A stretch of DNA of 64,000 nt from the NCBI RefSeq assembly GCF_021278965.1, contig NZ_CP065589.1:4283001-4347000 (forward strand). The letters run 5' to 3'. The position numbers were made by a program, and so were the translations under genes. Source of the DNA: Chryseobacterium capnotolerans (GTDB taxonomy: Bacteria > Bacteroidota > Bacteroidia > Flavobacteriales > Weeksellaceae). The notes beneath the pieces are model-generated. The model saw nothing but the letters and a program-made list of their open reading frames with translations, was not told where the DNA came from and searched no databases. Numbering within the stretch: position 1 is the stretch's first letter; each line of letters opens with the position of its first letter. Below are positions 10,363 to 22,021 of the stretch, piece by piece.

Positions 10363-12116
10363 TTACTCAGATTTTGTGACAGTTGTTCTTTCTGAAACGC
10401 CATTGGAGTTGAACGCTTCAATCTGAAAGTAGTATGCGTCTGTTCTGTCTGCACCTGTAAAGAAATATTCATTCTTCCCGTAAACCATGATGCTACCGTA
10501 CATTTTATCAGGAGATTTCCCCCAGTAGATTACATAGCCATCTGCTTCAGGATTCTGCTGCCATTTCATCCAGATACTTCTTCTTTCCCCATATTTTTTA
10601 GGATCTGCTCTTAAAGGGACAAAACCTTCTACTTTGGCAGGCTGTTTTCCGGCTCCTTTTCCAAACACTCTGAAACCACTTAATGCAAATTTTCCCGTAG
10701 GCATTTTCAGATTTTCCATTTTCAGGAAACGGGCTTTTGCAGGCTGCTCAAGTTCAATATAATCGTGAGGAACATCTTTTGTATTCTTACTTTTATCCAC
10801 AATCACATTCCATTTCTTTCCATCGTTGGAACCATAGATTTTATATTGGTGCATTTTCCCTAAGGTTTTTCCCATGAACTCAGCATCCTGATCGGCATAA
10901 TTAATCTGAATGGCATTGATGGTGGAAACTTCACCAAGATCAGTCTGGAACCATTCCCCGGACTTTCCTGTTTTAGCACTCCAATAGGTCTTGATATCTT
11001 CATCTACAGCATAATTGGGCTGATAACTTCCTAAAGTTGATGAAACCTGAACCGGTTTATTATAATTCAATAACATCCATCCGGCAAAAAGACCTTTTGA
11101 AAAGTCTTTCCCCTGTGCATACTGTGGAAGATAAGTAGGATAATCACCATACGCTGTATTACAATACATCACATCATCTTTATCAAAACCAGCAGGCCAG
11201 ATACCAAGTCTTCTTTCAAAATTATTTTTAGTAGAAATAAAGATCGTGGAAACGTGCCACCAGTTTTTATAATTGTCTTCAAAAGTAGCCCCATGTCCCG
11301 CTCCTCTTGCAAAACCTCCCGGTTTATAAGAGAACGGATTATGCTGCTGGTATTCGAAACCTTCCAAAGGGCTCTTACTTACATAAACTCCGTCGGAATA
11401 TCCACTGAATTCTGTTGCCGGAGCACCATACTGCATATAATATTTACCATTATGTTTGGTCATCCAGGCTCCTTCTACAAAAGGCTGCAGAAAAACATTA
11501 TCATTGTATTCCCCGAAACGTTCCCAACCGTGGTCTTCAGGCTTGAGTTTAATAATGGGTTTTACAAAACCTTCGGACTGAAGATTTTTTACTTTCACTT
11601 CTGTTCCCAGCAAGGGCCATTCATTACTGGATCCCCAATATAAATAGAGTTTATTCTTATCTTCATCATAATGAAATGCAGGGTCCCAAGCTCCTACCTT
11701 TAAAGTATCCACAGCAATTTTCCAGTCGTCTTTGGTTGGATTTGTGCTTTTCCAAATTGGAAAATCCTGTTCCCAGGTTGAACCATAAACATAGAGTGTA
11801 TCTTTCATAGCCCAGACAGCCGGAGCGTTAAGGTCGTGAATGTATTTATTGTCTCTTAGAAATTTTCTTTTTACAAACTTCCAGTCCAACATATCATCAC
11901 TGTACCAATATCCTTCCTGATTGGTAGAAAAAGAAAAAGCTTATTCTTAAAATTGACAATTACAGGATCTGCTGTAGCACGATGTTTTCCTTGTTTTGAA
12001 AAAACTTCAAAAGGGGTATATCCGTAATCTATATTGATTGGATTGCAAAACGTTTTCTGCTGCCCGCCCACCCATATTCCGAGGAGAATTGCTAAAGATA
12101 AAAAGTATTGTCTCAT
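10363..12116 (-). pseudogene. glycoside hydrolase family 43-like protein with F5/8-type C domain, frameshifted
   Basis: As given, the gene is split. 12116-11871 encodes a signal peptide and the blade start (CNPINIDYGY, ADPVIVNF). 11892-10363 encodes the rest: a five-bladed-propeller-like catalytic region (DPAFHYDEDKNKLYLYWGS), a discoidin/F5-8C domain near the middle (YWSAKTGKSGEWFQTDLGE) and a fibronectin-like C-terminus. Adding one A to the A5 run at 11928-11932 (plus strand) joins the frames into about 584 residues (FSTNQEGYWYSDDMLDW across the join). It probably acts on plant or microbial polysaccharide arabinose/xylose linkages; that is inferred from the family. Either a sequencing slip or a recent pseudogene. 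Confidence 0.8.
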
Positions 12117-12139: not shown

Positions 12140-12147
12140 CAAAGTTA
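12140..12147 (-). promoter_or_regulatory. TAnnTTTG -7 box upstream of the GH43-like gene
   Basis: TAACTTTG on the minus strand, 24 nt before the start codon and overlapping the last codon of the upstream membrane-protein gene. It suggests that the GH43 gene has its own promoter and is not part of the polyamine operon. No clear -33 TTG was found. Confidence 0.4.
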
Positions 12148-13170
12148 GCTAACTTTTTTCGGTCTTCTCCAGATAAATCCATCTAAGAGGTAATGAGTAA
12201 GCTGTGGAACAACCAATAAAGGAATCAAAAACTGAAGCAGGCTTTCTGAAACAGCCAGATTCATTGAAAAGTGTTCATTCCATACCAAGGTTTCCCATAA
12301 AAATTCTTCTAATAGAGCTAACCCTACAATGATAGCTACAAATAAAAAGATTCCTGAAAGCGGTTTAAAAACCTGCATCCAGTTGAGTTGCCGTTGATCT
12401 TTCTGTTTGATTTCACGGATATAGATCAGAGCGATATAAGGAATACCATGAGATACCACATTCAGAAAAGTAAAAAGAAGATCATTGTTAAAATATATGA
12501 TTCCAAAATACCAGGAAAGGAAAGTTCCAGCGATAAGTGCTACTTTAGGAATATTGATGGTTCTAGTTTTTATAGTTTCAACGATTGTTTTGATGATCCA
12601 AACTGTTACAATCAGAGTATAGAGAACTGTAAACCCTCCAATATAGTTAGGTAAGTTTTTAAGCCAGTCAAATTCATGATCCACAAACCAAGCAAAAGCG
12701 CGTGGGGTCTGAAACCAGTACAGCATTGGAAAAATGGTAGCAGCATACACGGCAACCTCATCTATTTTTTTACTCCAGTTATTCGGTTCAAAACGGGCAT
12801 AGATTCTCATAAACCCATACTGCTGACGGATAAAATGAAAAACAGCAATGAGTGCCAGCACAGACCAAAAGGTAAGGCTCCCCAACTGAAATAAAGCTAC
12901 TCCTAAGCACCAGCTTATGATGGGTACGCCAAAATACAGCAGCTTTCTTCTCTGCACCTCAGCCTTTACAAAATAGGTCTTGAACAATGTGGAATATACA
13001 TGGGCTACATCTACAAAAACAATCAGGAAAAGCCATGTATAAAAGGAATAATAATTTTCAAGTCCCTGAATCTGTTTCTGAAAAAGAAAAATTATTAACA
13101 ATACCAGGAAAGGTGGGGATAAAATAAACCACCAGTCTGTTTTTGCATTATGTATCCAGGGTTGTTTCAT
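12145..13170 (-). CDS. polytopic membrane protein with conserved His motifs
   Basis: A 341-residue protein with about nine transmembrane segments. His residues sit at helix ends in recognisable clusters: DVAH (near 54), FHFIRQQYG (near 131), SHGIPY (near 241) and THYLLDGFIWR (near 328). Such spacing is seen in integral-membrane metal enzymes, but I do not recognise a named family. It starts 9 nt after the FAD oxidoreductase gene and is the last gene of the polyamine-type operon, so a role in modifying a membrane or amine product is a reasonable guess only. Confidence 0.75.
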   Translation of the reverse strand: MKQPWIHNAKTDWWFILSPPFLVLLIIFLFQKQIQGLENYYSFYTWLFLIVFVDVAHVYSTLFKTYFVKAEVQRRKLLYFGVPIISWCLGVALFQLGSLTFWSVLALIAVFHFIRQQYGFMRIYARFEPNNWSKKIDEVAVYAATIFPMLYWFQTPRAFAWFVDHEFDWLKNLPNYIGGFTVLYTLIVTVWIIKTIVETIKTRTINIPKVALIAGTFLSWYFGIIYFNNDLLFTFLNVVSHGIPYIALIYIREIKQKDQRQLNWMQVFKPLSGIFLFVAIIVGLALLEEFLWETLVWNEHFSMNLAVSESLLQFLIPLLVVPQLTHYLLDGFIWRRPKKVS

Positions 13171-13179
13171 AAAACAATT

Positions 13180-14769
13180 TTATATCATTTGTTGGGCCGT
13201 CCTTATTCCCTGATAGAAAGCTTCTTCAAAAATAGAAATTCCTGAGAGATCAGAATGCGCAAAGAATACTTTTCCCTCAATAGGCTGTTTGGCCATTTTT
13301 GCAGCATCTCCAAAAATCTGTTCCGGAACAGGAGCAATCATTGCATGTCCTAATTTATGGAATTGCATTTCAAGGATAAAATCTTCAATCAGAGGATGAG
13401 CTTTCTTCAGATCTTCTAAAACTAAATTTTTAAGTTCAGCTTCTTTCATGGAATACAACTTCTTCCTTGCCTTTTTACAATCGTTGGTAGAAAAACTTTT
13501 ATAGTAAGTAATCACTTTCTCACCCATGATCTGATTAATATTCTGATGCTGGTCAAAAATATAACCTAATCCGGAGGATCCATAAATCACATTATCCCAT
13601 GCCAATTCTTCATCTCCTCCAAATTCATTCTTCAAAGTAATTGTGGTTAAAAGCCAGGGAACATAATGAAATGATGATGCTTTTCTGTTGTTAAAAATTC
13701 TTTCATTGACAAACTGTGGGGTAGCAAACAAAACTTTATCAGCAATGATTTTTCTGGTCTTCTTATGAGCATTGTCAAAACTTAAAACTTGAACCTTGTC
13801 AGTAACCTTAACATCAAAAACTAAATTCTTAGTTAATGATTTTCCTTTTGTATACTTTGAAAAATAATGAGTTAACCTTGCATTCCCTTCAGGCCATGTG
13901 AATACCTGATCTTTATATTTTTTACTCCAGTTGTTTTTTCTTCCTGCAAAATAATGAATCCCGGCCCATGCGGAAACGTAGTCAATTCCTAAACCATAAT
14001 CGTCTCTGCAGGAATAATCTAATACCCAAAGAAGTTCTTCAGACTTGAAGTTGTTCTGGTGAAGCCAATCATTGAATACAATTTTCTCAAGATTAAGAAC
14101 CTCATCTTCTCTGCTTGAATCATGAACCGGAATAGCAAACCAATAGTTTCCCTGAATATCTTTCTTTTGACGAAAGTCATCCATCATTTTGAAAAAACGG
14201 TCAAACTCTTTCTGAACTTCTGCTGATATTCCTTTTTGAGGAACAATATCATTCTGCCATGCATTTTTATAAAACAGTCTTTCCTGCTGTGGAAAGGTCA
14301 TCTGATACTCATCTAAAATGGGATCTCCATTTTCATCTAGCCCTTGGCAGATACCACATTCTGTAAGAAATTCTATGATCTCTGTATTTTCTTTATTGGG
14401 TAAAGGCAGATAGTGTGCTCCCAGCGGGAATTTTGAAAACTTGTTCTGACCATTGGAAGAATTTCCACCCAAATGATCTTCCATTTCCAACAAAAGGTAA
14501 TCATCTTCGTTATGCTGGCTGAAAAGCCTACAGGCCGAGAGCCCAGAGATTCCTCCGCCCACCACAAGATATTGAGTGTGGATAACTTCGGAAAATTGTG
14601 GAAAATCCTTTGCCCATAATTTATGCCCCAAAACATGATTGGTTCCTGTAATCTTCAACAACAATGATTTTACTTTCCTTCCACAGTATTGCAGAAAAGG
14701 AAGCATCAGCCCACCAAGCATTACTGTTTTCAGAAACTCTTTCCTACTGAACTTTTCCCCACTCTTCAT
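13180..14769 (-). CDS. FAD-dependent amine-oxidase-like oxidoreductase
   Basis: A 529-residue protein. The N-terminus has an SRKEFLK segment before a hydrophobic stretch, weakly like a Tat signal or membrane anchor. The dinucleotide-binding motif is VVGGGISGLSACRLF, followed by LLEMEDHLGGNSS as in flavin amine oxidases and phytoene-desaturase-like proteins. The C-terminal FAD contact appears in HSDLSGISIFEEAFYQG. It overlaps the spermidine-synthase-like gene by 26 bp, which argues for translational coupling and a linked function; oxidation of a polyamine or polyamine conjugate is inferred from that position. Confidence 0.85.
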   Translation of the reverse strand: MKSGEKFSRKEFLKTVMLGGLMLPFLQYCGRKVKSLLLKITGTNHVLGHKLWAKDFPQFSEVIHTQYLVVGGGISGLSACRLFSQHNEDDYLLLEMEDHLGGNSSNGQNKFSKFPLGAHYLPLPNKENTEIIEFLTECGICQGLDENGDPILDEYQMTFPQQERLFYKNAWQNDIVPQKGISAEVQKEFDRFFKMMDDFRQKKDIQGNYWFAIPVHDSSREDEVLNLEKIVFNDWLHQNNFKSEELLWVLDYSCRDDYGLGIDYVSAWAGIHYFAGRKNNWSKKYKDQVFTWPEGNARLTHYFSKYTKGKSLTKNLVFDVKVTDKVQVLSFDNAHKKTRKIIADKVLFATPQFVNERIFNNRKASSFHYVPWLLTTITLKNEFGGDEELAWDNVIYGSSGLGYIFDQHQNINQIMGEKVITYYKSFSTNDCKKARKKLYSMKEAELKNLVLEDLKKAHPLIEDFILEMQFHKLGHAMIAPVPEQIFGDAAKMAKQPIEGKVFFAHSDLSGISIFEEAFYQGIRTAQQMI

Positions 14770-16258
14770 CGAAATAACGAACTAATATCTGGTTATCCAG
14801 ACGGTTAACTTCTACCTCATTCACCTTCATATCTTTACTGAAATATGATATTTTCGAAAATTCATAATCATAATATTTCAGACCTGGAATTCTTCTGTAC
14901 ACTTTATTGTTAATGGGCTCAAATGAAGCCATTGAAAATCCCCATTCTCCAAATGATGGAACGTAGGTATGATATGCAGAAGTAAAAGGAAAAATCTGAT
15001 TAATGGTTTTCTCTATGCACCAAAAAGATTTTGGGGCAAAATAAGGAGAGGTTGTCTGTACTACAATTTTGGTATCAGGAGTAGTCAATCTTTCAAGTTC
15101 TTTATAAAACTGTAGAGAATATAGCTTTCCTAAGCTGTAATTGGACGGATCCGGAAAGTCTATGATGATGACATCAAATTTCTTTTTGTTTTCCTTTACC
15201 CAGATATAAGCGTCTTTGTTAATGACCTCTACCTTTGGATTGGACAATGAACTTTGATTCAACCTTTTCATGGTTTCATTGGTTTTGAAGAAATCTGTCA
15301 TTTCTCCATCCAAATCAACTAGCTCAATATTTTTTACTTCATTATATTTCAGGACTTCACGTACAGCAAAACCATCACCCCCACCTAAAATCAGTACATG
15401 ATCAATATTTTTAGCCATCGACATTGCCGGATGAACCAATGCTTCGTGATAGCGGTACTCATCTGTTGAGGAAAACTGCAGGTTATTATTCAAATACAGT
15501 CTGAATTCCCGGTTATTTCTAGTTAAAACAATTCTCTGATAGGGAGAACTCTTTGTATACACAACGTTTTCTCCATAAAGCTTCTCCTCAGAATAAGACA
15601 AAATTTTATCTGAAAAGATGAAAAGCCCAACCAATAAAATAAATGCTGCTATTGATTTTATTTTTAATGAGAAAGGTTTTGATAGTTCCTTTTTAAGATA
15701 AAAACATAAGAATATGGCAATTGAGATATTGATCAGCCCAAAGAATAAAGGTGTTTTTACAATTCCCAACTGCGGAATTAAAACCAAAGGGAAAAGAATA
15801 GATGCTAATAAAGCTCCAATATAATCAAAGGCAAAAACATTTGAAACCAAATCTTTAAACTGAACTTTATCTTTCAGAATATTCATCAGAATCGGAATTT
15901 CCACTCCTACCAAACATCCTGTAAAGAAAACAAAAAGGTAAAGTACACTTTCAAAATGTGCCAGTGTATTGAATAAAACAAATAGCACCACAGAACTTAC
16001 CCCACCAACAATTCCTACCAGAATTTCAATTTCTACAAACTTGTCGATAAGATTTCCCTTAATGAATTTAGCCAGATAGGAACCTACTCCCATAGAGAAG
16101 AGGTAAACTCCAATGATAAAAGAAAACTGCTTTACAGAGTCTCCTAAAAGATAACTCGCCAATGCTCCCGCCACCAATTCATAAATCAATCCACATGTCG
16201 CAATGACAAATACAGAAAACAATAAAAGCAGCTCAAGAGGAATCCTCTTCTTATCCAT
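14744..16258 (-). CDS. membrane-anchored spermidine-synthase-like (aminopropyltransferase fold) protein
   Basis: A 504-residue protein. The N-terminal 210 residues hold about seven transmembrane helices. The C-terminal half is a Rossmann-type spermidine synthase domain: AdoMet-type glycine motif LILGGGDGFAVREVLKY, ELVDLDGEM, and the acidic active-site loop IIDFPDPSNYSLGKLYS. Soluble spermidine synthases transfer an aminopropyl group from decarboxylated AdoMet to putrescine. The fused membrane domain suggests the acceptor is membrane-associated or the product is moved across the membrane; that is inference. The DUF350 gene overlaps its start by 8 bp. Confidence 0.9.
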   Translation of the reverse strand: MDKKRIPLELLLLFSVFVIATCGLIYELVAGALASYLLGDSVKQFSFIIGVYLFSMGVGSYLAKFIKGNLIDKFVEIEILVGIVGGVSSVVLFVLFNTLAHFESVLYLFVFFTGCLVGVEIPILMNILKDKVQFKDLVSNVFAFDYIGALLASILFPLVLIPQLGIVKTPLFFGLINISIAIFLCFYLKKELSKPFSLKIKSIAAFILLVGLFIFSDKILSYSEEKLYGENVVYTKSSPYQRIVLTRNNREFRLYLNNNLQFSSTDEYRYHEALVHPAMSMAKNIDHVLILGGGDGFAVREVLKYNEVKNIELVDLDGEMTDFFKTNETMKRLNQSSLSNPKVEVINKDAYIWVKENKKKFDVIIIDFPDPSNYSLGKLYSLQFYKELERLTTPDTKIVVQTTSPYFAPKSFWCIEKTINQIFPFTSAYHTYVPSFGEWGFSMASFEPINNKVYRRIPGLKYYDYEFSKISYFSKDMKVNEVEVNRLDNQILVRYFDEEWGKVQ

Positions 16259-16466
16259 GAATTGCTGCGCTTATAATCATTGAAATTCCGATGATAAAAG
16301 CCCCGAAAACAATAGCCAGCGCTATATTTTTATTTTGAGCAATCTCATGCCATGTTTTTTCCGGGGTAAGCTTTTCAATAATAAAATAGCAAATAAGCAG
16401 AATAGCGATTCCTAAGAATGAGTAAAGAACCGAATTTAATATTGGTAATAAATTGATATTGTCCAT
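16251..16466 (-). CDS. DUF350 family small membrane protein
   Basis: A 71-residue protein with two hydrophobic helices (about 10-28 and 46-66) joined by a polar loop containing KLTPEKTWHEIAQNKN. The pattern, including a charged TPEK/WxEI segment before a second Gly-rich helix (IVFGAFIIGISMII), fits DUF350 (YjfL-type). Function is unknown; from memory, members often sit next to polyamine-enzyme and DUF4178 genes. It overlaps the spermidine-synthase-like start. Confidence 0.85.
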   Translation of the reverse strand: MDNINLLPILNSVLYSFLGIAILLICYFIIEKLTPEKTWHEIAQNKNIALAIVFGAFIIGISMIISAAIHG

Positions 16467-16478
16467 AGTTTTTAATTT

Positions 16479-16670
16479 TTATTTATGATAGTATCTGTAA
16501 AATCCAGTTCTGGAGTGGCTCTTTGTAGTTCCGTCGCGATATTTTTCTGTTTTCACACAGTCACAGAATTGGTTTCCTGTAAACGTAAGATAAGCGAACC
16601 ACCCCATAAAAAATACCCCGATAGCTAATAACAGCCAGTTGCTTTTGATATAATTGATTATACTTTCCAT
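16479..16670 (-). CDS. small single-TM protein in polyamine operon
   Basis: A 63-residue protein with one transmembrane helix at about 10-31 (WLLLAIGVFFMGWFAYLTF) and a short polar C-terminus containing CDC and a Lys/Arg/Tyr-rich tail. I do not recognise the family. It is 3 nt from the DUF4178 gene and 12 nt from the DUF350 gene, so it is almost certainly translated as part of the operon. Confidence 0.7.
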   Translation of the reverse strand: MESIINYIKSNWLLLAIGVFFMGWFAYLTFTGNQFCDCVKTEKYRDGTTKSHSRTGFYRYYHK

Positions 16671-16673
16671 AAT

Positions 16674-18136
16674 TTAGTTATTAGCGTAAGGTGAATTGGA
16701 GCTATTGTTCCATTTTCCTGATTCGAAAACGCGTTTCATCCAATGGGTTACTACAGCAAATATGATGAGACAAACCAGAACAATTCCGAAGTTCCAGAAG
16801 GAAACCGGCAGCCAGGTTGCTGTAATATTTACGGCTGGGTTATTCTCATAACCTCTGGGATAGCTATACTCCTGAGGCATATTGAGAAGTATAGAATCTA
16901 ATTTTCCTGTTTCTTGTATCGTATTCTGAAGACCAGTTCTCAGGATGATCTCATTCTTCAAAATTTCTATATCATTATAGGTACTTACTGTTTGGTCTTT
17001 ATCATTTTTGAGAGAAAAACCTCCTTCATTATTTTTAAGAATTGAAAAGTCTGCATTCTGTGGTCTATAGCCAGATTTAAACGGATCTTTTGCACCGCCT
17101 TCTTTCTCAGCTGAAATCAGGAAATGGTAAGTTCCTCCGGGAATACCACACAAATTAAAATCTTCCGTCTGGCTTCCTTCACTCCAGCTTTCTCCCCCTT
17201 CATATCCGGAATATTGCTCAATATCTTTAGAAGCATACACTACTTCGTTGGTTTTTTCATTCACAAGACTAAGCCCTACATTTGCCCAGGAGTTATTCAC
17301 AGCAGAAAATGCACGTACTTTTAACGGTGCAGATCCACCTGAAAGGGTAAAGCTTTTACTCACCACTTCCTTATCCGCAACATCTGCAAAATTGATGCTC
17401 TGTTCAAAGACCGTCTGATTACTCCTTGAAGTCACCACATATAACTGCAGAATACATATCAATAAGGCTGTAATGGCCATAATATTGGTACATTGTTTAA
17501 CATTAAAGAAAAACGGCTGAACAATCCCTGTTCCAGAGCGGTAAGGCATATCTGTTATACCGAATGCTTTTTTGATTTCACCTCTTGAAATATGATTACC
17601 TTTGAAAAACTGTACTGATTTTCCATATTCTTCACGAGAAATCATTTCAGTACCATTTACATATTCTTTATAGTGAGCTAACCCAGATTGTAATTTCTCT
17701 TCAAAAAACCCGGCGGCAGCATGAACGTTACAAGGTGTGGTTTCATACCATCTGTATTTCTTACCATCTGCTTCAACATAATATTGGAATTCTTTAAAGG
17801 CAAAATCAACCTGACGAAGAAATACCCAATGTCCGTCACTTTCACTCAGATATACATTGTTTCCGGTACGGTCTTTCAGAGTATATTCTCGCCAAAAGGT
17901 ATCCGAGCCATATTTTTTAATAACAATATTAATCACCCAGTACTCTGTACCATAGAGTAAACCTTTCTGACCTACTGCTACAACAACGTTTTCCACAGGT
18001 TTTTTAACAATCCTCTTTTTGTAGACTCTCCTACTTTAACAAGGCTATCGCAGTGGCTGCAGATAAATTCTTCAATGGCAAAATCTATTGCCAGCTCGTT
18101 ATTATGGGTTTGGCAAATGGGACAAATGTGATCCAT
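16674..18136 (-). pseudogene. zinc-ribbon plus DUF4178 membrane protein, frameshifted near its N-terminus
   Basis: The long part (from a GTG at 17996) begins inside a DUF4178 domain (VGQKGLLYGTEYWVI) and continues through two transmembrane helices (about 154-172 and 402-422 of that part) around an extracytoplasmic Asn/Ser-rich region. An ATG at 18136 opens a zinc ribbon (CPIC and CSHC, residues 5-29) that stops at 17978. Adding one A to the A6 run at about 18000-18005 joins both into 487 residues, the zinc-ribbon-then-DUF4178 order usual for this family. The ATG is 2 nt from the speD stop. DUF4178 function is unknown; the context is polyamine chemistry. Confidence 0.8.
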
Positions 18137-18138
18137 TT

Positions 18139-18498
18139 TTATCTGTAAATTTTGTGTTTTTGAATGGTATTAGCTTTAAAATATTGAACAACCTCATCTG
18201 CAATCTGTTCTACTTTTTCTGTATTGTCCTGAGTATAATTACAAAGGAAAACATCAAAGGTAAGCTGCTTAAATTCCGGCCACGTATGAATACAGAGATG
18301 TGACTCTTTAAGACATACTGCCGAAGTAAAGCTTTGATTTTCAAAAATATGATTGGTAATTCCTACAATCTCTACGTCTTTGGTTTCCAGAATACGTTCT
18401 GTAAAAGCAAGAAAACCCTTGCTGTCTAATAACAAATCTTCTGACTCTGTTTCCAAAGTCAGAAGAATATGTAAACCTTTATTTGATAATGGGTTCAA
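18139..18498 (-). CDS. speD: S-adenosylmethionine decarboxylase proenzyme (prokaryotic type)
   Basis: A 119-residue protein with the self-cleavage and active-site motif KESHLCIHTWPE. Ser66 would become the pyruvoyl group, and a Cys follows in FDVFLC (about residue 86). The length is that of the short bacterial/archaeal proenzyme (also called SpeH). The product, decarboxylated AdoMet, is the aminopropyl donor for spermidine synthase, which fits the spermidine-synthase-like gene further down the operon. It starts 20 nt after the ctlX stop. Confidence 0.93.
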   Translation of the reverse strand: MNPLSNKGLHILLTLETESEDLLLDSKGFLAFTERILETKDVEIVGITNHIFENQSFTSAVCLKESHLCIHTWPEFKQLTFDVFLCNYTQDNTEKVEQIADEVVQYFKANTIQKHKIYR

Positions 18499-18518: not shown

Positions 18519-19442
18519 TTATTTTTTTGGAAGAAAAACTTCTGCAAGCATACATCTTGCACTTCCGCCTCCATTTACTTCAATGGTATTTAAATCGGAA
18601 TAAATAATTTCACAGTATTTTTCAATAGCTGCTACCTGCTCCTGATTTAAAGACTGGTAAGCCGTTTGGCTCATTACAAGGAATTTTTCACCTTGTTTAT
18701 TCTGAACCTGAAGCATATTTCCTGCAAACTGCTGCATTTGCTCTTCTGAAATTTCAACAATTTCTTTTCCTGAATTCTTGATGGCTTCAATTACCTTTTC
18801 TCTTTCCAGCCCATCATCAATACAATCAAGGCAGATTACTACAAATTTATCTGCTACACACATCATAACATTGGTGTGATAAATTGGGAGTCTTTCCGTA
18901 CCTACAGTCTGATAAGAATGGAAAACCACTGGTGTAAAACCATATTTTTCACAGAATTCTCTGAATAAGTTTTCATCTAACCTCAAAGAAACAGAACCAT
19001 ATGCAATCTTATTATCGTGATCGAAGATCATACTTCCTGTTCCTTCCAGAAAATGACCTTGTGTTTCCGGAAAAGACCAATCGTCGATTTCAGTAATTTC
19101 GAAACCTTGATCTTTGATGCTTTCAAGAATATCATCTCTTCTTTCTACTCTTCTGTTGGAAGCGAACATCGGATATAAAACCACTTTTCCGTCTTTATGG
19201 AAACTTACCCAGTTATTAGGAAAAATGGAATCCGGGGTATGAGGATCTAATGTATCTTTTATAGTAATGACATTGATTCCTTTTTCTCTCAGCTTCCCAA
19301 CAAAGGTATTGAACTCCGCCAAAGCTTTTGACTGAATATCGGAACCTGTTTGTTCTACCTGAAAGTAATTGTTTTTCGCAGTTTCTGCGTTGTAGCCGAA
19401 TGCAATCGGCTCTATCATTAATACCGTATCTGTTGTTTGCAT
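18519..19442 (-). CDS. ctlX: citrulline utilization hydrolase CtlX-type (amidinotransferase/ADI fold)
   Basis: A 307-residue enzyme of the guanidino-group-modifying superfamily. FPNNWVSFH near residue 75, GTGSMIFDH near 151, YHTNVMMCV with the catalytic His near 188, and the nucleophile Cys in GGGSARCML near 297 are visible. CtlX hydrolyses citrulline to ornithine, which can feed putrescine synthesis. The speD gene begins 20 nt downstream, so the two are likely cotranscribed and this enzyme may supply the amine side of the pathway. The exact substrate is inferred from family resemblance. Confidence 0.88.
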   Translation of the reverse strand: MQTTDTVLMIEPIAFGYNAETAKNNYFQVEQTGSDIQSKALAEFNTFVGKLREKGINVITIKDTLDPHTPDSIFPNNWVSFHKDGKVVLYPMFASNRRVERRDDILESIKDQGFEITEIDDWSFPETQGHFLEGTGSMIFDHDNKIAYGSVSLRLDENLFREFCEKYGFTPVVFHSYQTVGTERLPIYHTNVMMCVADKFVVICLDCIDDGLEREKVIEAIKNSGKEIVEISEEQMQQFAGNMLQVQNKQGEKFLVMSQTAYQSLNQEQVAAIEKYCEIIYSDLNTIEVNGGGSARCMLAEVFLPKK

Positions 19443-19500
19443 GTTTTTTAAGTTTGAGGGTGTTAGTGTATGAGAGTTGGAGAGTTGTCAGCCTGGTTGA

Positions 19501-19905
19501 TCAATCCTTCTGTTCTGTATCAAAAGAAGAAAATGAGCACCATTTTTCTGACTGGTTAATCATATTAATTAACATCCCTATTATTTGATTATACTGATGC
19601 TGCAAATTGTTAAATTGCTCTTCATTGATATAGTTGCAGGCATAGGCAAACTGGCTCCATGTTTGGGTTTCCCTAGCCTCGCCTTCAGAGTCTGTAAGTT
19701 TAGCGATAAAAGATTTTTCATATCTTCTTTTTCCCCAAGCTTCACTTACATTAGCTGTTACAGATCTTGATGATCTTCGTATTTGATCAGTAAGAGAATA
19801 GAGTTTTTCTTTTGGAAAAGCTTTCGATAATTCGTAGATCTGTTGAGCCGTCTCAAAAGACTTTTGATATACTTTTAGATCCTGATGGAATTTAATCGTT
19901 GGCAT
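19501..19905 (-). CDS. four helix bundle protein (23S rRNA intervening-sequence type)
   Basis: A 134-residue all-helical protein of the TIGR02436/S23 type: KVYQKSFETAQQIYELSKAF, then LTDQIRRSSRSVTANVSEAW with the conserved Arg/Ser cluster, then SEGEARETQTW. Homologues are encoded inside 23S rRNA intervening sequences or as scattered free genes in Bacteroidetes; function is unknown. Here it sits alone between two guanidino-enzyme genes and is bracketed by GAGAGTT-type purine-rich stretches in opposite orientation, which looks like an insertion. Confidence 0.85.
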   Translation of the reverse strand: MPTIKFHQDLKVYQKSFETAQQIYELSKAFPKEKLYSLTDQIRRSSRSVTANVSEAWGKRRYEKSFIAKLTDSEGEARETQTWSQFAYACNYINEEQFNNLQHQYNQIIGMLINMINQSEKWCSFSSFDTEQKD

Positions 19906-19985
19906 AATTACTTATTTAAGATTAAAAAATTGCACTAAGACTTTCTCACTCTAAAACTCTCCTACCCTATAACTCTAATACTCAA

Positions 19986-20900
19986 CTAGTCTCTTACAAG
20001 TGGCATGGTAGAGCATCTCAGCAGACCTCCCATTTTAGAGATTTCTCTGTAAGGAATTTCTTCTACTGTCATTCCCCACACATCTCTTAGGTGGTTGTTC
20101 ATTCTGGTAAATGCTTTGTCTGAAACTACAACATCAGGAGAAATAGAGAAAATATTCGGGAACATTTCAAACATTTCTTCATCATTGATGTGGAAACAGT
20201 TTTCCTCTCCAAAAATATCGATGATAAGACGATAGTCGCTCTCGTCTACAAATCCGTTTTTGTAGATGATACATTTGTCTTCACCTACAGGATTGAAAGT
20301 ACAGTCCAGGTGTAAAATTCCTTCAAAAGGTACTTTATCATTTTTCTTCAGTTCAAGATCAATGATTCTTTTCTTAGGAAAGTATTCTTTTAAAATTTCA
20401 ATGGCATACTCGTTGGTTCTTGCCGTTTTATAGTTTCTGTAATCTTCGCTGAAGCAGGTCCCAATGAATATGAAGTCATTCCATACGATTACATCCCCTC
20501 CTTCAATATGTGCTGTTTCCGGAAGATTAATAATTTTTCTCCAGGCTACTTTTTCAAATACGCTTTTGTATGCTTCCTGCTCATCTGCTCTGTCTGCAAT
20601 TACGTTGGAAATAATCATTTTATCATCAATCACAAAAGCAACGTCTCTTGAAAAGACTTGATTGTAATCTTCAATGATGCTTGGGCGCAGGACTTCAACG
20701 TCATACTTTTTTAATACCGCTTCAAAAGCGTTCATTTCATTAATAATATCCTCTTCTTTAGGATAAATGTTGTGTTCGATTGAGTAATATGACTTAGCGT
20801 CATAACTTTCCTCTAGCGTGGGAACGGCTCCCAATGAATTAGGCTGGCCCAGAACTACTGATCTCAGCCTACCCGTTTCGTTTTTAATGTTTAGTCTCAT
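19986..20900 (-). CDS. amidinotransferase / dimethylarginine dimethylaminohydrolase-like protein
   Basis: A 304-residue guanidino-group-modifying enzyme. RSVVLGQPNSLG near residue 14, IEGGDVIVWND near 132, HLDCTFNPV near 198 and the catalytic Cys in GGLLRCSTMPL near the C-terminus match the arginine deiminase / DDAH / amidinotransferase fold. It could hydrolyse arginine or a methylarginine; this cannot be fixed from sequence alone. It is a distant paralogue of the ctlX product and probably once adjoined it. Confidence 0.85.
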   Translation of the reverse strand: MRLNIKNETGRLRSVVLGQPNSLGAVPTLEESYDAKSYYSIEHNIYPKEEDIINEMNAFEAVLKKYDVEVLRPSIIEDYNQVFSRDVAFVIDDKMIISNVIADRADEQEAYKSVFEKVAWRKIINLPETAHIEGGDVIVWNDFIFIGTCFSEDYRNYKTARTNEYAIEILKEYFPKKRIIDLELKKNDKVPFEGILHLDCTFNPVGEDKCIIYKNGFVDESDYRLIIDIFGEENCFHINDEEMFEMFPNIFSISPDVVVSDKAFTRMNNHLRDVWGMTVEEIPYREISKMGGLLRCSTMPLVRD

Positions 20901-21192: not shown

Positions 21193-21357
21193 ATGAACAA
21201 GAAAAATCCTGTGCTGAAAAATGCACGAAAATTAGAAAGAGACCAACAAAAAACTATTATTGGAGGTGAATTTACAGGACCTAGAAAATGCTGTGAGTGG
21301 GACGATGTAAGCGGGTCATGCTTCCTTTGGGTATGTAATAAATGTGGCTGCCCATAA
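21193..21357 (+). CDS. Cys-rich double-glycine-leader peptide 1 (bacteriocin-like)
   Basis: A 54-residue peptide. The leader MNKKNPVLKNARKLERDQQK ends at IIGG, a double-glycine processing site like those cut by C39 peptidase exporters. The predicted 29-residue core contains CCEWD, then single Cys, then CNKCGCP at the end: six Cys in the pattern CC-x8-C-x4-C-x2-C-x-C-P. Two tandem paralogues follow. It has its own upstream element and terminator. No exporter is encoded in the window. Similar leaders are annotated in Chryseobacterium as bacteriocin-like proteins; activity is unknown. Confidence 0.85.
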   Translation: MNKKNPVLKNARKLERDQQKTIIGGEFTGPRKCCEWDDVSGSCFLWVCNKCGCP

Positions 21358-21366
21358 AGTAGTAAG

Positions 21367-21400
21367 AAAGCCGTTTCATAAATTTTGAAATGGCTTTTTT
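21367..21400 (+). terminator. hairpin terminator after peptide 1
   Basis: AAAGCCGTTTCA pairs with TGAAATGGCTTT (one G-U pair) and runs into T6, 10 nt after the stop codon. Confidence 0.8.
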
Positions 21401-21574
21401 ATTATACGGTCACGAATTACATTCAGTTTAAAAATTTTCATTTTATACTACAGAACCATGATGGAATCTTCATATTTCACTTAAAAACATTCATATGTCT
21501 TTATGGATTTTAGCACAACTTATTATATTTCATACACATAATGATAAAAAATTCTTTTTAGAATAAAATAAATT

Positions 21575-21609
21575 CCTATATTAGTGATATAATTTCCATG
21601 AAATTATAT
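21575..21609 (+). promoter_or_regulatory. conserved palindromic upstream element, copy 2
   Basis: CCTATATTAGTGATATAATT followed by a perfect inverted repeat: ATATAATTTC and GAAATTATAT around a 3-nt loop (21587-21609). It matches copy 1 (21119-21153), about 40 nt before the second peptide gene. Confidence 0.55.
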
Positions 21610-21648
21610 TGTTTAAAACTTAACTATCAACATCAAAAAATCAAAATC

Positions 21649-21813
21649 ATGAACAAGAAAAATCCTGTGCTAAAAAATGCACAAAAATTAGGAAGAGAGC
21701 AACAAAAATTAGTAGTAGGTGGAATAGGAATCTCAACAGGCAAAAGATGCTGTGAATGGGATCCGTCAGGAAAATGCACGCTCTATACTTGTGATAGATG
21801 TCAATGTCCATAA
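21649..21813 (+). CDS. Cys-rich double-glycine-leader peptide 2 (bacteriocin-like)
   Basis: A 54-residue paralogue of peptide 1. The leader MNKKNPVLKNAQKLGREQQK is followed by LVVGG, and the core is KRCCEWD...C...CDRCQCP with the same six-Cys spacing. The frame is open for 17 more codons upstream, but the conserved leader starts at the ATG at 21649, so that start is chosen. There is no terminator before peptide 3, which starts 46 nt downstream, so the two are probably one transcript. Confidence 0.85.
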   Translation: MNKKNPVLKNAQKLGREQQKLVVGGIGISTGKRCCEWDPSGKCTLYTCDRCQCP

Positions 21814-21859
21814 AAAAATCAGAACTTAACTATCTATTAACATCAAAAACAACAAAATC

Positions 21860-22021
21860 ATGAACAAGAAAAACCCGGTGCTTAAAAACGCACAAAAACT
21901 AGGAAGAGAGCAGCAAAAATCAGTAATCGGAGGAATTATTACAAGACCAAAATACTGCTGTGAGTGGAATGACGACGGAAGCTGCAGAATCTGGACATGT
22001 GGTAACTGCGTTTGCCCTTAA
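21860..22021 (+). CDS. Cys-rich double-glycine-leader peptide 3 (bacteriocin-like)
   Basis: A 53-residue paralogue. The leader MNKKNPVLKNAQKLGREQQK is identical to that of peptide 2, the cleavage site is SVIGG, and the core has YCCEWND, then C, then CGNCVCP. It lacks the palindromic upstream element but keeps the short TATTAACATCAAAAA leader stretch before the ATG, consistent with a tandem duplication of the gene plus its ribosome-binding region. A shared bidirectional terminator follows. Confidence 0.85.
   Translation: MNKKNPVLKNAQKLGREQQKSVIGGIITRPKYCCEWNDDGSCRIWTCGNCVCP

Follow-up and report, generated by a model that had tools for sequence, protein, structure and literature searches.

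A conserved operon of Chryseobacterium capnotolerans with a membrane-anchored aminopropyltransferase and a His-Lys-ended membrane protein as its candidate acceptor

The window analyzed here is a stretch of 64,000 nucleotides from Chryseobacterium capnotolerans (assembly GCF_021278965.1, contig NZ_CP065589.1, positions 4,283,001-4,347,000), the genome of which consists of one contig of 5.36 Mb. Eight open reading frames (ORFs) on the minus strand at 12145-18498 (window coordinates are used throughout) form an operon that combines speD, a gene for a relative of S-adenosylmethionine (AdoMet) decarboxylase, with genes for a membrane-anchored relative of spermidine synthase, a flavin adenine dinucleotide (FAD) oxidase-like protein and several other membrane proteins. 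The intergenic gaps measure 2, 3, 12 and 9 nt and the overlaps 8 and 26 bp. We suggest that the operon may serve to aminopropylate the terminal lysine of a short tail protein that it encodes. From the upstream end, the features are:

18139-18498, minus strand: speD, AdoMet decarboxylase class 1b-like, 119 aa, TTG start (PF02675; pyruvoyl Ser66 in LKESH, His71 and Cys86 present)
17978-18136, minus strand: zinc-ribbon piece, 52 aa, the N-terminal part of a zinc-ribbon-DUF4178 gene with a frame break (matches the first part of a continuous ORF in Chryseobacterium loci)
16674-17996, minus strand: remaining piece of the same broken gene, 440 aa, with DUF4178, a transmembrane (TM) segment, a large domain and a second TM segment (PF13785; hydrophobic segments 172-190 and 398-416)
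16479-16670, minus strand: single-TM tail protein, 63 aa, proposed acceptor (conserved His-Lys, HK, terminus)
16482-16577, minus strand: hydrophilic tail of the 63-aa protein, ending FYRYYHK-COOH, the terminal Lys being the proposed aminopropyl acceptor (charges of the flanks, variation of the HK codons)
16251-16466, minus strand: DUF350 (YjfL-type) short membrane protein, two TM segments, 71 aa (PF03994)
14744-16258, minus strand: seven-TM-anchored aminopropyltransferase (the synthase), 504 aa (NF002956)
15599-16258, minus strand: membrane part of the synthase, residues 1-220, seven hydrophobic segments (Pfam MFS_1 below the cut-off at 17-201; loop charges)
14744-15586, minus strand: catalytic SpdSyn domain of the synthase, residues 225-504, predicted to lie outside
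13180-14769, minus strand: FAD amine-oxidase-like protein, 529 aa, with a Tat-like (twin-arginine translocation) signal in the RK variant and Cys29 (PF01593)
12145-13170, minus strand: polytopic membrane protein, 341 aa, with His57, His112, His241 and His326 (conservation)

This seven-gene block is a real and strongly conserved unit. A profile search with an alignment of the oxidase gave 573 relatives, of which the best 80, all Bacteroidota by name, were kept, and protein families at these loci were called with iterated hidden Markov models (HMMs) that started out with the sequences of three operons, or of two in the case of the tail and 341-aa proteins. The synthase was present at 80/80 loci, DUF4178 at 78, DUF350 at 76, and SpeD, the tail protein and the 341-aa protein at 74 each; the complete set of seven families was recovered at 64 loci, and some of the losses coincide with contig ends (e.g., L061, L097, L117, L123). 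An independent draw of 148 Bacteroidota genomes yielded three oxidase matches at E <= 1e-15, one of them in the present genome, and the synthase adjoined the oxidase in all three. A preliminary description of this DNA, made from the sequence alone, had placed the oxidase and the last gene in one operon with the speD-DUF4178-DUF350 block, a grouping that would fall if relatives had these two genes scattered without the block. The synthase is found at all of the kept oxidase loci and beside all three independent matches, so that the oxidase is not scattered and the grouping stands. The 341-aa protein is less constant: it is missing from 6/80 loci, one of which (L117) lies at the end of a contig. 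Weak, partial matches to it (three, of one genus) occur away from any such synthase, although both strong matches in the Bacteroidota genome sample, one of them in this genome, lie inside the operon. The synthase itself was found in 29/395 Bacteroidota genomes, and in the alphaproteobacterium Novosphingobium the genes for DUF4178, a 48-aa protein, DUF350, the synthase, the oxidase and speD are consecutive. The operon lacks a detected DUF350 gene at two related Bacteroidota loci from metagenome-assembled genomes (L107, L112), and DUF350 may thus be dispensable.

SpeD scored 70.5 bits against AdoMet_dc (PF02675; Pfam cut-off 25), with Ser66, His67 and His71 in 75/75 sequences and position 86 occupied by Cys in 57, Ser in 17 and Tyr in 1; we take Ser66 to be the pyruvoyl residue, His71 to be catalytic and Cys86 to be presumably so. 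The synthase scored 640.8 bits against the NCBIfam model for polyamine aminopropyltransferases (NF002956; curated cut-off 472). In every sequence compared it retains Gln241, Tyr270-His271-Glu272, Asp317, Asp349, Asp367, Asp370 and Tyr380, with Asp or Glu at 295 and 315, all of which we assume to have their usual active-site roles. The acidic residue of the GGG(D/E)G motif, Asp295, is Asp in 79/79 sequences (the window and 78 loci) and Asp or Glu in 20/20 others. This residue binds decarboxylated AdoMet (dcAdoMet) and is described as the one that separates aminopropyltransferases from a fungal methyltransferase (PMC10349129). The DUF4178, DUF350 and oxidase proteins scored 38.2 bits (PF13785, cut-off 25), 53.2 bits (PF03994, cut-off 26) and 38.3 bits (PF01593 Amino_oxidase, cut-off 19.8), respectively. 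Across the whole genome there is a single SpeD match and a single spermidine-synthase domain, both inside the operon, and no genome match for carboxy(nor)spermidine decarboxylase exceeded the cut-off. The earlier suggestion that dcAdoMet is directed to something in or at the envelope, and not only to free spermidine, is supported by this arrangement. The genome search turned up no soluble spermidine synthase that could account for speD by a normal soluble pathway, and dcAdoMet probably serves an envelope target as well.

Several features predict on which side of the membrane the reaction would take place. The mean number of Lys and Arg residues in successive loops of the synthase is 2.39, 0.77, 2.59, 0.29, 3.16, 0.66 and 4.48, and the even loops carry more of them than the odd loops in 79/79 sequences (the window and 78 loci) and in 20/20 others. 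With seven helices, these loop charges put the N-terminus on the inner and the catalytic domain on the outer side of the membrane, so that the latter is predicted to be extracytoplasmic; seven TM segments are likewise counted in a survey of phage-shock-protein (PSP) systems (PMC11237479). For the tail protein, the flanks have a net charge of +1.07 on the N side vs. -0.77 on the C side, and the corresponding carrier in lipoprotein-type operons looks exported. The oxidase has Cys29 in 7/7 aligned sequences, and a Tat-like RR/RK motif was found in 78/80 of its relatives, with a Cys behind the motif in 77/80, by a simple pattern search in which chance matches are possible. Together, the catalytic domain, the oxidase and the tail are all predicted to lie outside the membrane.

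The 63-aa protein, which the preliminary description had listed as a plain TM protein, is in our view the best candidate for the acceptor, and its recognition as such is new here. In an alignment of 75 tail proteins (the window and 74 loci), the last two residues, His62-Lys63, are invariant in 75/75, and besides these two columns (100% each) only Gly32 (97%) reaches a conservation of 93% or more. Otherwise the protein diverges strongly, with a median pairwise identity of 36% (5th percentile 18%). The tails measure 22-47 residues (median 31), are rich in Ser, Gly, Thr, Arg and Tyr and are hypervariable in sequence. The codons for the terminal dipeptide also vary, between CAC and CAT and between AAA and AAG, followed by TAA or TAG. 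Since the HMM for the tail may lean on the HK ending, we also applied a test based on position only, taking the longest ORF between the DUF4178 and DUF350 genes in 94 gaps (nine more loci were without one flanking family and two without a gap). The ORF ended in HK in 85/94 gaps and in any Lys in 88/94, compared with a terminal Lys in 24/203 ORFs in other frames of the same gaps, and with a terminal Lys in 15.7% and a terminal HK in 0.12% of ORFs of at least 100 aa (n=1617). The six misfits are accounted for by a shorter HK-ending ORF in four gaps (L054, L055, L084, L115) and by a search for tails ending in Lys or Gly-Gly in two (L171, L164). Three loci (L099, L103 and L039, the last from genome G002) have no separate tail gene, and there the DUF4178 protein carries an extra helix and a tail ending in SGHK, SNHK and GSHK, respectively; in L118 and L122 a short ORF missed by the HMM ends in GYHK and YNHK. 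These fused and overlooked tails were sought after the HK pattern was known. Among the 80 loci, the tail is thus absent only from L061 and L123, both of which are cut by contig ends. In Solitalea agri (L106), the DUF4178, tail and DUF350 genes are tandemly duplicated and both tails end in YYHK.

A second, wider comparison was anchored on the synthase and comprised 37 loci, namely 29 from Bacteroidota and 8 of 13 plasmid records with a synthase. A membrane-linked tail with a terminal Lys was identified in 35/37, and the remaining two end in Gly-Gly and carry an ATP-grasp ligase. Among the 29 Bacteroidota loci there are 17 HK tails, 10 Gly-Lys tails and the two Gly-Gly tails. The Gly-Lys carriers are varied: lipoprotein-like proteins with a signal and a Cys recognized by eye in G005, G066, G087 and G088 (ending FGK) and in G184, G373 and G345 (ending GGK or FGK), TM proteins in G328 and G231, and a DUF4178 fusion in G312. 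The lipoprotein-like FGK proteins were recovered at loci L040, L042, L043 and L044; L042 (G087) encodes PspA, CesT/Tir and DUF4178 by Pfam and corresponds to the operon type of the PSP survey, and L043 (G066) encodes PspA. All eight plasmid loci (Ensifer, Burkholderia arboris, three Novosphingobium, Tritonibacter, Gemmatirosa and Alteromonas) have a Lys-ended tail, four of them ending in HK, three in GK and one in VK; the tail of L171 is also an annotated 48-aa gene. The two Gly-Gly loci belong to one genus (G064, G158) and encode SpeD, a GspS-like ATP-grasp enzyme and a tail ending in YGG, with the synthase on the opposite strand.

Beside ATP-grasp ligases the tails end differently. GspS-like ATP-grasp genes were found in 31/395 Bacteroidota genomes, and at 17 strong loci (L182-L198) an upstream low-complexity tail was recognized in 14, ending in Ser in 7, Gly in 5, Ala in 2 and Lys in none; at L191 the tail protein lies one ORF away from the ATP-grasp gene. 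In E. coli, YjfM ends in WGG and YgiB in MGG, and they adjoin YjfC and YgiC, which RefSeq names peptide-spermidine ligases. The tail in the window ends in HK and not in the small uncharged residue of the YgiC/YjfC-type tails, and no match to the GspS-like ATP-grasp family (PF03738) was found in this genome. One genome, G166, carries both systems, with an HK tail in one operon and a Gly-Gly tail in the other. Among the loci that could be read, the ending of the tail follows the type of enzyme. As a side observation from the genus of the window, four of seven genomes have the synthase operon (G000, which is the present genome, G210, G265, G308), two have an ATP-grasp gene (G095, G277) and one has neither (G012), so that the two tail systems do not co-occur in this small sample.

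The presence of the oxidase is correlated with the His before the terminal Lys. In the 35 loci with a terminal Lys, the tail ends in HK in 19/20 with an oxidase gene vs. 2/15 without an oxidase match on either strand, the exceptions being Gemmatirosa (HGK), G257 and G289 (Fisher P = 9e-7, from counts entered by hand and uncorrected for kinship). The preliminary description had called the 341-aa protein His-rich, a label that does not fit a protein with only 7 His in 341 residues; three of them (His57, His112, His241) are invariant and His326 is present in 98%. Some relatives of this protein are named Brp/Blh-like carotene oxygenases. It has no match in Pfam (up to E = 1) or NCBIfam, and a comparison of its AlphaFold2 (AF2) model (predicted local distance difference test, pLDDT, 87.7) gave no convincing fold match.

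Taken together, we hypothesize that the operon encodes a system that modifies protein tails on the outer side of the cytoplasmic membrane. To judge from its family, SpeD would produce dcAdoMet in the cytoplasm, and the membrane half of the synthase and/or DUF350 may pass it to the catalytic domain outside, which is the weakest step of the scheme. The acceptor would be the 63-residue single-TM protein, the flexible tail of which ends in the invariant His-Lys. With its aminobutyl group, the side chain of lysine resembles one arm of putrescine, so that aminopropyl transfer would yield N-epsilon-(3-aminopropyl)lysine (+57.06 Da, C3H7N), in effect a peptide-bound analog of spermidine. The Tat-exported FAD oxidase might then oxidize the new amine or recognize the His-Lys end, and the 341-aa protein, where present, could perform a further step. 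In the sister operons, the same reaction would be directed to a lipoprotein or TM tail that ends mostly in Gly-Lys, and in the operons with a GspS-like ATP-grasp ligase the equivalent reaction would be amide bonding to the terminal carboxylate of a Gly, Ser or Ala end. We give about even odds to the proposal that the operon aminopropylates the terminal lysine of the tail protein with SpeD-made dcAdoMet and that the oxidase acts on the product. The more general idea of a bacterial C-terminal tail polyamination, in which a Lys end is matched to the seven-TM aminopropyltransferase (and oxidized where it is His-Lys) and a Gly, Ser or Ala end to the ATP-grasp ligase, is more tentative and falls somewhat short of an even chance.

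Several observations weigh against this scheme. The analysis shows the gene order, the conserved terminus and its change with the type of enzyme, and it predicts the topology; the production of dcAdoMet, its outward passage, the transfer to lysine, the oxidation and the physiological role are all inferred. The scheme requires dcAdoMet to cross the membrane, which it is not known to do. SpeD scored 64.1 bits against TIGR03330, under the equivalog cut-off of 75.65, and because this cut-off was missed and the Cys position is variable, AdoMet is a likely rather than a certain substrate and the enzyme could decarboxylate another compound. In the AF2 model of the synthase (mean pLDDT 86.5), which does not settle the number of TM segments, residues 134-187 form one helix; a single pass here would leave six TM segments and put the catalytic domain inside, although this helix spans two 19-residue hydrophobic segments and a single pass would place the charged loop that follows outside. 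Conserved ends are also seen in other proteins of the operon (Arg in 74/74 for SpeD, HG in 70/76 for DUF350), so that an invariant C-terminus is by itself no proof of a substrate. The HK ending itself partly drives the HMM by which the tails were recovered; 8/37 tails of the synthase-anchored set (L151, L164, L165, L169, L171, L173, L175, L176) were located by a filter that demanded Lys or Gly-Gly and weigh less; and the 14 tails beside ATP-grasp genes were chosen by eye, with L198 (G064) being also one of the two Gly-Gly loci. The link between oxidase and tail is a co-occurrence with three exceptions in 35. Finally, the DUF4178 gene is broken in this assembly: the zinc-ribbon and DUF4178 ORFs lie in different frames and overlap by 19 nt, and because a single continuous ORF of 419-530 aa matches both pieces in 16/16 Chryseobacterium loci, we consider this copy to be frame-broken, with intact copies elsewhere. 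The preliminary description was right about the tight packing of the minus-strand genes, with gaps of 2-12 nt and overlaps of 8 and 26 bp, but not in reading the zinc-ribbon/DUF4178 gene as one ORF.

Other readings of the same operon have to be considered. The tail protein could be a small structural or regulatory subunit of the membrane complex, with its His-Lys end as a docking peptide for DUF350, the synthase or the oxidase, while the substrate is something else. Short single-TM subunits are common, the conserved termini of DUF350 and SpeD would fit the same pattern, and at some loci the tail and the DUF4178 protein are one polypeptide. We nevertheless regard this as rather unlikely: a docking peptide should keep more than two residues, whereas here the linker is hypervariable; the lipoprotein, TM and fused carriers share little besides the terminal Lys; and the end changes to Gly, Ser or Ala beside the ATP-grasp enzymes.

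A further reading, in line with the target in or at the envelope that the preliminary description had proposed, is aminopropylation of an envelope lipid, a glycan or another small envelope amine, with the oxidase and the 341-aa protein processing the product. It would agree with the membrane anchoring and with the prediction that the catalytic domain and the oxidase lie outside, and the PSP survey mentions changes to membranes through aminopropylation of other substrates (PMC11237479). Yet no lipid-handling family was identified in the operon by Pfam or NCBIfam, and the Lys-ended tail would be left unexplained, which makes this reading improbable. The synthase could also be an ordinary membrane-tethered synthase of spermidine or a related polyamine that makes free polyamines from putrescine or agmatine. 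All of the aminopropyltransferase active-site positions that we checked are conserved, the nearest solved relatives are thermospermine synthase and an agmatine/triamine aminopropyltransferase, and no second SpdSyn domain was found in the genome. Against it stand the predicted outside location of the C-terminal domain, the operon partners, which would have no explanation, and the fusions of Li et al. 2019, which are said to fail to complement a spermidine synthase mutant and to occur in hosts without spermidine. We consider this the least probable of the readings.

The proposal that tail lysines are aminopropylated builds on several known systems. MFS-SpdSyn fusions encoded with AdoMet decarboxylase and DUF350 were reportedly described by Li et al. 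2019 (Biochem J 476:2579), who are said to have inferred a substrate other than putrescine and to have named no acceptor; the pair of enzymes is the same as here, and an acceptor is proposed in the present work. Deoxyhypusine synthase puts a polyamine-derived chain on a lysine of eIF5A, but the chain is an aminobutyl group from spermidine, the lysine is internal and the reaction is cytosolic; the enzyme is unrelated to the synthase in the window, and what is shared is a polyamine-derived chain on a protein lysine. The PSP survey describes an operon with a seven-TM synthase, DUF350, DUF4178 and a lipoprotein together with PspA and CesT/Tir, as well as ATP-grasp relatives; it also brings up the aminopropylation of other substrates, for which Li et al. 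2019 is cited (PMC11237479). The idea of an unusual substrate for the membrane-bound synthase is thus already published and not new. The membrane synthase, DUF350 and DUF4178 are common to those operons and ours, and a polyamine-linked role in the envelope was proposed for them (PMC11237479). Unlike them, however, the operon in the window has SpeD, the FAD oxidase, the 341-aa membrane protein and the HK tail protein. Neither PspA nor CesT/Tir was identified among the 20 operon and neighboring proteins scanned with Pfam, and the PSP-type lipoprotein had no HMM match in the window ORFs of at least 60 aa. In the parts of the survey that concern these operons, a C-terminal lysine is not mentioned (PMC11237479).

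The closest parallel for the tail is YgiC/YjfC with YgiB/YjfM, which shares an operon-encoded low-complexity tail with a fixed end, a polyamine-type enzyme and, in the yjf operon, DUF350; the difference is an ATP-grasp amide ligase and a Gly-Gly end there vs. an aminopropyltransferase and a Lys end here. Peptide-spermidine ligases are the subject named in the title of Pederick et al. (2023). In diatoms, silaffin lysines carry aminopropyl units, and a bacterially derived AdoMet decarboxylase and aminopropyltransferase are suspected to be involved (PMC3820600), which makes the proposed chemistry both more plausible and less new. Silaffins differ in being eukaryotic, with long polyamine chains on many lysines along the protein and a role in silica deposition, and neither a C-terminal rule nor a seven-TM enzyme belongs to the system as described (PMC3820600). 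A further parallel is the fungal N-terminal histidine methyltransferase NHMT, in which seven TM segments, which are needed, and a SpdSyn-like domain modify the terminal His of secreted proteins (PMC10349129). The window synthase has a similar architecture and likewise a proposed terminal-residue target, but NHMT transfers a methyl group from AdoMet, has Ile in place of the acidic residue and acts on the N-terminus in the endoplasmic reticulum (PMC10349129); Asp295 of the window synthase does not conform to this non-acidic motif. Among the matches listed in a search of open-licence literature, in none was the acceptor identified as a tail protein or as a C-terminal lysine. What is new here is a specific, testable acceptor and a rule that matches the terminal residue to the enzyme.

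A few further observations concern the assembly and the neighborhood. The frame break at 17978-17996 resembles a homopolymer-type indel, either natural or made by the assembly. At 10363-12116, the gene for an F5/8 type C domain protein likewise appears to be divided between two frames that overlap (81 and 509 aa), which suggests further frame errors in the assembly, and elsewhere in the genome (G000:C1:773232-774506; L179, L180) a match to a SpeA-like decarboxylase comes in two overlapping pieces, one with an internal stop and both scoring under the speA cut-off, possibly another frame break. Immediately upstream of speD and on the same strand are genes for CtlX (citrulline hydrolase-like) and an arginine-deiminase-like protein (18519-20900). 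Farther upstream (21193-22021), three small ORFs in a row have near-identical leaders (MNKKNPVLKNA..QQK..GG) and Cys-rich ends, and are likely precursors of bacteriocins or of peptides resembling RiPPs (ribosomally synthesized and post-translationally modified peptides).

Membrane-bound relatives of spermidine synthase encoded with AdoMet decarboxylase and DUF350 have been an open puzzle, with a substrate that is seemingly not putrescine, and a conserved acceptor encoded in the same operon would make the question directly testable. If our proposal is true, it would, to our knowledge, be the first case of an aminopropylated terminal residue in bacteria, made by a membrane-anchored relative of spermidine synthase with extracytoplasmic use of dcAdoMet; should the catalytic domain indeed lie outside, dcAdoMet would gain an unsuspected role beyond the cytoplasm. 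The aminopropyltransferase and ATP-grasp operon types would then be joined under one logic. This would also hint at why polyamine enzymes repeatedly come with DUF350 and DUF4178, and it would give a first lead to the functions of the FAD oxidase and of the 341-aa membrane protein.

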